A stretch of DNA of 64,000 nucleotides from Lentisphaeria bacterium (GTDB lineage: Bacteria; Verrucomicrobiota; Lentisphaeria; Victivallales; Victivallaceae), in NCBI GenBank assembly GCA_017450705.1, contig JAFSTC010000055.1, forward strand, positions 1 to 64,000, read 5' to 3'. How positions within the stretch are numbered: the stretch's first letter is position 1; each line of letters starts with the position of its first letter. A program made the position numbers and the translations under genes. The notes below the pieces were generated by a model, which was given only the letters and a program-made list of their open reading frames with translations, ran no database searches and was not told the DNA's origin. This document shows positions 49,304-51,777 of this stretch, piece by piece.

Positions 49304-50497
49304 CTATTTTTTCCTCACCGGTTGTCCGTTGTCGATCACGGCATTGCGCCGGATGTAGGTCGGGATGTCCAGATCCTCCCCGTTCCACACGACTTTCTGC
49401 GTGGACTCCATGATCCCTTTGGACACGTGGTCGAACGGCAGAGCCGGCTGTTCCACCGCGCCGTCGCCGAAAAGGCTCCCCTGCTCGGATTGACGGCGTC
49501 CGCCGGAACCGCCTTTGCCGGGGACGGCGATCTCCTCCTGCCTGTCGAACTTGATCGCCACCGCGGAAAACTGCAGCATGCCCTTCCACTCGGGAGCCGT
49601 CGACGCGGACGTGAGCATCACCGTTTCAGGACGGGTGTACCTCTCTGCCAGACTGAAAACCGCCTGGACGTCTCCCACGGCAAGCTCGGGCCCGCCCAGC
49701 AGACTGAAGATGACGGCGTCCGCCTCCGTAAGGGAGGAGGCTCCGCCCAGCAGGGGAGAACACAGCATCTCCTCGAAGGCGATCTCGGGACGGCGCGCGC
49801 CGTCCTCGGTCCGGGAAACCCCCACGCCGAGGGAACACCGGCTCTTCCGGCGCTTGAGCAGCGCGGAAAAAGCGGAAAAATCGGCGTTGAGCAGATTGCC
49901 CGCGCAAAGCAGCTCCGAAAGGGCGAGGGCCGTCCGGGCGACCTGTTCGTCGGCCATGCGGAAAGCCTCCGCCAGAGGCGCCGTGGACGGCAGAACGGAA
50001 AACAGCAGATCGTTGGGCATGGCGACGACGGCGTCGGCGATTTTGTGGATATCCTCGTCGAGCGCCTGGACCGCCTGACGGCGCCGCAGATTCCCCTCGT
50101 GGGCAAAGGGCAGCGTCACCAGAACGACGGAAGGGATGTGCAGACGCATGGCCTCGCTCAAAACGACGGGGATGCCGCCGGAAGCCGTCCCGCCGCCCAG
50201 TCCGGCTGAGACGAGAAGCATGGAGCTTCCGGAGATCATATTGGCGATCTCGGTCCTGGCGCGTCCGAAGGCGATCTGGCCGTCGCCGACATTGCCGCCG
50301 CACCCGCGGCCGCCGCGCCACATTTCACCGGCGAGAAGACAGCGGTCGGCGGGAAGTCCGGAACTCTCCAGGCCGCTCCTGTCCGTATCCGCGGCGACGA
50401 GCCGGATCTTTTCCGCGGCCGACATCTGCCGCAGGGTCCCGATCACCCGGCATCCGGCTCCGCCGACCCCCATGATTGTAAACTTTTCCTTTTCCAT
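49304..50497 (-). CDS. ftsZ: Cell division GTPase FtsZ, divergent
   Basis: 397 residues. Start ATG 50497 follows ftsA by eight bases. Nucleotide loops: GVGGAGCRVI (T1, 10-19), ADTD (T2), GRGCGGNVGDG (T3) and LGGGTASG (T4, 100-107; the classic is GGGTGTG). The T7 loop is NADFSA (204-209): N204 and D206 are kept, but the second catalytic Asp (D212 of E. coli) is Ala. A linker ends in DIPTYIRRN, the conserved C-terminal peptide that binds FtsA. It assembles the Z-ring; loss of the T7 Asp suggests slow GTP turnover. Paired with ftsA, but no mur or fts neighbours of a classic dcw cluster are present. Confidence 0.9.
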   Translation of the reverse strand: MEKEKFTIMGVGGAGCRVIGTLRQMSAAEKIRLVAADTDRSGLESSGLPADRCLLAGEMWRGGRGCGGNVGDGQIAFGRARTEIANMISGSSMLLVSAGLGGGTASGGIPVVLSEAMRLHIPSVVLVTLPFAHEGNLRRRQAVQALDEDIHKIADAVVAMPNDLLFSVLPSTAPLAEAFRMADEQVARTALALSELLCAGNLLNADFSAFSALLKRRKSRCSLGVGVSRTEDGARRPEIAFEEMLCSPLLGGASSLTEADAVIFSLLGGPELAVGDVQAVFSLAERYTRPETVMLTSASTAPEWKGMLQFSAVAIKFDRQEEIAVPGKGGSGGRRQSEQGSLFGDGAVEQPALPFDHVSKGIMESTQKVVWNGEDLDIPTYIRRNAVIDNGQPVRKK

Positions 50498-50505
50498 AAG
50501 CCGGT

Positions 50506-51777
50506 TCAGATTTTGATGACTTTTTTGATATTTTTCAGAGTCGTCTTGCTGCTGCCCCACATCCTGTTGAGCCCGTCGACAAGGGAGTCGATGGGTCTGC
50601 GGGTCTCGTCGTACTCGCCGAGGAAAAGGGCGGCCAATTTCAACCCGCCCCAGACAGAGGTGAATCTGGGATCGTCCAGTCCCGTGAGGACGCCGCCGAC
50701 ATCGGCGGGGATCCGTTTGCGGCAGTCCAGTTCGAACACCTCGCGGAACAGCTCCTCCGACCGGAAAAACGATGCCCCGCCGCCGGTGAGGACGCCGCCG
50801 GCGTCCAGACTGTGGGGCGCCCCCGATGCGGTCAGCTGTTCGCGGATGATCTCGAAGATCTCCCGCAGACGCCAGTCGATGACCGTCTCGAAGCTGGAGA
50901 ACGGGATCTTTCTCAAGTGACCGGCCGCGCCCCGGAACTCCAGATATTCCCGGTTCTCGGCGCGCATCCGGCCCAGTGTTCCGTCCGCAAGCATCCGGCG
51001 GCACAGATCGATGTTGAGGTTCATGGCCACGGAGAGGTCGTTGGCCACATGTTCCATGCCCAGCTGGATCACGCCCGAAGCGCAGATCCCCCGGTCGTAT
51101 TCGACGATGTACTCGGTGCATCCGGCCCCCAGATCGACCAGCAGGACCCCCTGCGCCCGTTCGTCATCTGTCAGGACGGCGAAATCATCCGCCAAGACGG
51201 AAAAAGTCACCTCCGTATCGACGTCGCCGAACCCGGCATCCGCAACGGCGCGGCGGAAAACATCCAGCCGGGCGGCTATCCCGTGCACGACGTGCACGTG
51301 GGTTTCGAGGCGGACCCCCCGCTGCTGGAGCGGATCGCTCACACGGCGGCCGTCGACCTTGAAAAATGTTTCGGAGCAGTTGAGGATCTCCCGGTCGCCG
51401 GCCAGATTCAGGACCTGGGCGTTTTCCATGGCCTCTCTGCGTTCGGTCTCCGTGACGATCCGCTCGTCGTTGCGGATGGTGGAAGAGCCGACCCCCTGCT
51501 GGGACGCGATGCCGCAGCCGGTGACCAGCACATGTACCAGACGGCAGTCGCCGAGACGGCCTCCGGAAGAGGCGTCGGCCTCATCCACGGCCTTTTCCAA
51601 AAGGGGCAGCAGCGCCGGATAGTTGCATATCTCGCCTTTCACGACAGTCCCGGCGCTGGGAACGAGTCCCCGCCCGATGACCTCGACCTGCCCGTCTCCG
51701 GAGATCTCTCCCAGAAGCACGCAGATCTTGGATGTCCCGATCTCCACGGAACAGACGACATCGCGGTTCTTAAACAT
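50506..51777 (-). CDS. ftsA: Cell division protein FtsA
   Basis: 423 residues, actin-like fold. CSVEIGTSKICVLLGE is phosphate loop 1, VDLGAGCTEYIV is phosphate loop 2, and GVLTGGGASF the adenosine motif. The C-terminus ends in KTTLKNIKKVIKI, a short amphipathic helix as needed to attach FtsZ to the membrane. Its start overlaps the ROK kinase by eight bases and its stop is eight bases before ftsZ, so the three are tightly coupled. Residues between motifs are divergent, as expected for PVC bacteria. Cytoplasmic, membrane-peripheral. Confidence 0.9.
   Translation of the reverse strand: MFKNRDVVCSVEIGTSKICVLLGEISGDGQVEVIGRGLVPSAGTVVKGEICNYPALLPLLEKAVDEADASSGGRLGDCRLVHVLVTGCGIASQQGVGSSTIRNDERIVTETERREAMENAQVLNLAGDREILNCSETFFKVDGRRVSDPLQQRGVRLETHVHVVHGIAARLDVFRRAVADAGFGDVDTEVTFSVLADDFAVLTDDERAQGVLLVDLGAGCTEYIVEYDRGICASGVIQLGMEHVANDLSVAMNLNIDLCRRMLADGTLGRMRAENREYLEFRGAAGHLRKIPFSSFETVIDWRLREIFEIIREQLTASGAPHSLDAGGVLTGGGASFFRSEELFREVFELDCRKRIPADVGGVLTGLDDPRFTSVWGGLKLAALFLGEYDETRRPIDSLVDGLNRMWGSSKTTLKNIKKVIKI

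Follow-up and report, generated by a model that had tools for sequence, protein, structure and literature searches.

Loss of the second catalytic aspartate of the FtsZ T7 loop (D212 in Escherichia coli) is the rule in the phylum Verrucomicrobiota, where either of the two T7 acids is often gone and both are rarely gone. The FtsZ encoded in the window (the whole stretch of 64,000 nucleotides of a Lentisphaeria bacterium analysed here) carries an alanine at this position, which, taken as a peculiarity of one protein, is nothing unusual within its phylum. What is of real interest is that the loss of a catalytic residue extends across the phylum under reciprocal constraint, possibly with a series of erosion stages beyond it. 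The turnover of FtsZ is believed to set the pace of septum building, and the two T7 acids are regarded as necessary; since one of them is routinely dropped in this phylum, natural proteins allow this requirement to be tested directly. Intermediates from Lentisphaeria would also supply material for the question of how FtsZ-free division arose in Planctomycetes and Chlamydiae. No discussion of T7 acid loss or of reciprocal retention was found in the open literature on Verrucomicrobia FtsZ, subscription journals (e.g. Pilhofer 2007, 2008) being outside the scope of this search.

The window protein matches the tubulin/FtsZ GTPase domain (PF00091) with 77.1 bits, above the cut-off of 33. The FtsZ C-terminal domain (PF12327) scores 23.8 bits for a cut-off of 27, and is visible in the AF2 model, which has a pLDDT of 85.6 and displays an FtsZ-like fold with both domains present. 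The top Foldseek matches of this model are solved FtsZ structures, with TM values of up to 0.87 (by target length). The score against the NCBI equivalog TIGR00065 (159.3 bits) is below the cut-off of 295.2; only 34 of the 388 genomes in the phylum reach this cut-off, which therefore leaves out the larger part of the phylum and was not taken as decisive for FtsZ orthology. Both marks of an FtsZ orthologue, adjacency to ftsA and a C-terminal FtsA-binding peptide, were found (Table 1). A preliminary description of the locus had recorded this peptide as intact and the T4 motif as GGGTASG, and both are borne out by the sequence. It had also raised the matter of a second ftsZ: searches of the assembly (97.4% complete) with PF00091 and with the window protein itself as queries gave none, and another FtsZ supplying catalysis was rejected on this ground. 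Comparison with the nearest congener gives a dN/dS of 0.12, indicative of purifying selection, which together with the intact open reading frame rules out a pseudogene. Thus the window protein is probably the working FtsZ of the organism, tethered by FtsA, and we infer that it acts in division.

Table 1 Features of the ftsZ locus. Residues are numbered as in the window protein.
Feature	Coordinates	Strand	Remarks
ftsZ	49304..50497	-	397 aa; AF2 model and Foldseek matches to solved FtsZ
ftsA	50506..51777	-	Immediately upstream of ftsZ; TIGR01174 207.5 bits, cut-off 175.85
Arg17	50447..50449	-	Replaces outgroup Asn24 (T1 loop); alignment
T4 nucleotide loop	50174..50203	-	GLGGGTASGG; sequence and alignment
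Arg138	50084..50086	-	E. coli R142, arginine-finger-like residue (helix H5), kept; alignment, role from PMC8936486
Asn204	49886..49888	-	E. coli N207, kept here though lost in most of the family; alignment
Asp206	49880..49882	-	E. coli D209, sole acid within residues 196-230; codon GAT
Ala209	49871..49873	-	Aligns with E. coli D212 at the beginning of helix H8 (T7 loop); no acid here; codon GCT
C-terminal FtsA-binding peptide	49343..49375	-	DLDIPTYIRRN; sequence

The residue register was set by an alignment including FtsZ of E. coli MG1655, and a phmmer comparison with Methanocaldococcus jannaschii FtsZ yields the identical register (NVDFADV / NADFSAF). Both confirm the alanine that the preliminary description had placed at the D212 position, within the loop NADFSA. 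The window protein therefore departs from the canonical two-acid T7 signature (N207, D209 and D212), having Asn, Asp and Ala at these positions; the nearest congener, whose FtsZ is 87% identical, has a serine at the last of them. A nearby acid standing in for D212 had been named in the preliminary description as an argument against its reading. The search of residues 196-230, in the T7/H8 region, returned no acid besides D206, so no local substitute is seen. A second departure in the nucleotide pocket, the T1-loop arginine in place of Asn24, is family-wide.

The distribution of the two acids (Asp or Glu, E. coli numbering) was established on 250 genomes of the phylum, with one FtsZ per genome. 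Both acids are present in 57 proteins, only that at 209 in 133, only that at 212 in 46, and neither in 14. D212 is absent from about 60% of the sampled Verrucomicrobiota FtsZ, and its loss is no oddity of the window protein. All 61 outgroup FtsZ from other phyla have N207, D209 and D212, in a sample fetched with motif patterns and hence non-random. Under the genus label of the window (28 genomes), 22 proteins hold the acid only at 209, five only at 212 and one at both; these counts and the serine of the nearest congener exclude a sequencing error or a one-off mutation at Ala209. At the family level the figures are 29 (209 only), 11 (212 only), 21 (both) and 0 (neither). Across the phylum, the nucleotide-binding residues are kept at 90-99% (P134 99%, E138 99%, G105 99%, G107 97%, D45 95% and N165 90%), versus 77% for D209, 39% for D212 and 36% for N207, which indicates that relaxation is concentrated in the hydrolysis loop. 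In two families (f22 and f35, e.g. L293, L295, L298 and L304) D209 is replaced by glycine and D212 is retained; an additional Asp at 211 (GLDD) frequently accompanies this change and may compensate for it locally. Two loci of family f24 (L208 and L210) encode highly divergent FtsZ proteins with no recognisable T7 acids, in which the tail is retained.

The two acids do not appear to be lost independently. Families f10 and f24, whose FtsZ are degenerate, were left out of the main tests. Outside these, six proteins have neither acid, versus 29.4 expected under independence (Fisher p 3e-14, uncorrected for kinship). On a tree built without the T7 columns, a minimum of 22 changes at 209 and 25 at 212 is required; the tests rest on single FastTree trees. 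An independent-pairs test on the tree agrees in direction and is underpowered (median p 0.625 and 0.25). In a likelihood test of dependent versus independent evolution, rooted on both acids, the dependent model fits better (LR 21.4, p 2.6e-4), as it does when the degenerate families are added (p 6.6e-4) or when only Asp is counted (p 0.0019-0.0032). All four fits give a rate of loss at 209 that is 5-9 times lower once 212 is gone; the converse, a slower loss at 212 after that at 209, is seen only when Glu is counted as an acid. Moreover, simulation under independence gave six or fewer tips with neither acid in 1.5% of runs. Within one group of four genus members (support 93, each pair 100), one pair bears NADFSA (the window) and NADFSS, and the other NADFSD and SAGFSD. 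These patterns suggest that a single T7 acid is normally enough across the phylum, and that the one kept may be either D209 or D212.

In Staphylococcus aureus FtsZ, two aspartates of the upper subunit, D210 and D213, hold the attacking water; the first swings to bring it into position, whereas the second remains in place and contacts R143 via a water (PMC8936486). According to the alignment, the equivalents of D210 and R143 are kept in the window protein. GTP binding is probably intact and the T7 active site cut to a single acid: the swinging acid (D206) and the arginine (R138) remain, Ala209 taking the place of the second acid, and the filaments most likely form and hydrolyse GTP slowly, with slower turnover. 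We consider it likely, with moderate confidence, that the protein is a functional but slow FtsZ in which D206 performs catalysis. Slow hydrolysis is the consequence expected by analogy with engineered mutants. Indeed, E. coli D212A has about 7% of the wild-type GTPase activity (PMC8142252) and still forms filaments in cells (PMC4383033), and treadmilling of Bacillus subtilis D213A is slowed (PMC8079713). Against this, D212G rescues an E. coli ftsZ null only when a suppressor is present (PMC5405962), and S. aureus D213N shows no assembly in vitro (PMC8936486). The canonical scaffold thus tolerates the loss poorly, and it is by assuming compensating changes that we infer a slow but working FtsZ. 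Since D213N abolished assembly rather than stabilising the filament, the "very stable" filament proposed in the preliminary description is not a safe prediction. With either acid often gone in the phylum but rarely both, cells of this lineage probably divide with slow FtsZ filaments. The ftsZ gene is essential in Verrucomicrobium spinosum (PMC12283558), and D209 is lost in family f35, which we guess to be the family of this species.

The loss of D212 might instead be one step in the erosion of FtsZ, the constraint on hydrolysis being generally relaxed on the way to a non-polymerising protein and maybe to a final loss as in Planctomycetes and Chlamydiae. Fast evolution of FtsZ in the phylum is already known (PMC2474590, PMC9871819), the T7 loop is the most relaxed region of the molecule, and FtsZ stubs occur in another family of the same class (f10). 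In most of its sampled genomes the gene after ftsA encodes a truncated FtsZ of some 230-310 aa (L168-L184 except L171 and L172), devoid of T7 loop and C-terminal domain, with an LDIP-like FtsA-binding tail kept; the open reading frames inspected stop before the T7 loop yet retain a tail such as GQNLDIPTFQRRG. Some of these stubs also have no recognisable T4 loop. By profile comparison, two stub groups align to FtsZ columns 2-192 with a probability of 99.7-99.9%, and the two most degenerate stubs match FtsZ mainly through the tail, or weakly. One stub sits in a single-contig genome (G128), and close stub pairs have dN/dS values of 0.02-0.27 (dS being saturated in one pair), hence these are not obvious pseudogenes. 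As exceptions, the stub L175 (G256) does not adjoin ftsA, and L171, L172 and L185-L187 encode FtsZ of full length whose T7 loops are altered. Furthermore, in three Lentisphaera-like genomes (L375, L376 and L377) ftsA is present and the adjoining stretch contains no ftsZ; the Lentisphaera homologue was called non-functional by a reviewer in PMC2474590. However, the window protein retains both domains, all phosphate loops and the equivalents of D209 and R142, under the purifying selection given above, and simple relaxation does not predict that loss at 209 slows down once 212 is gone. We thus regard erosion as an unlikely account of the window protein.

A different residue could also take over from D212 and leave the GTPase normal. 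Where D209 has become Gly, lineages often have an extra Asp at 211, and 17 of the 45 proteins with an acid at 212 only carry an acid at that position; local substitution thus occurs in the phylum, and distant interface residues lie outside the segment searched in the window protein. Within that segment, D206 is the sole acid, and we find such a replacement quite improbable here. The slow, D206-dependent FtsZ remains our preferred reading for the window protein. The stubs of family f10 perhaps mark a stepwise route to FtsZ loss. More broadly, and only tentatively, FtsZ of the phylum could run with slow turnover on a single T7 acid (D209 or D212), with a graded series in Lentisphaeria leading to FtsA-bound, non-polymerising stubs, a living record of FtsZ loss.

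The window protein has in common with canonical FtsZ (E. coli, B. subtilis and S. aureus) the fold, the GTP-binding loops, the helix H5 arginine, the ftsA neighbour and the C-terminal tail, and differs by one T7 acid instead of two, the T1 change of Asn24 to Arg, and a score below the TIGR00065 cut-off. It lacks the same residue as engineered D212A (E. coli) and D213A (B. subtilis), with slow hydrolysis likewise expected, but here the change is natural, fixed and set in a divergent scaffold, and no other FtsZ was found in the genome. Divergence and fast evolution are features that it shares with the FtsZ of V. spinosum and other Verrucomicrobiota (PMC1845146, PMC2474590, PMC9871819). Nitrosopumilus maritimus FtsZ is also a natural protein with a changed T7 loop; it is devoid of the GTP-binding motif as well and did not polymerise (PMC3684127), whereas the window protein keeps its GTP-binding motifs.

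A further conserved tubulin-superfamily protein of 365 aa (L378:3088-4185, minus strand; L211-L218) is present in 37 of the 388 phylum genomes and absent from that of the window. It co-occurs with degenerate as well as with fuller FtsZ, and its neighbour in G128 (L378:1968-2996, minus strand) looks kinase-like by eye.
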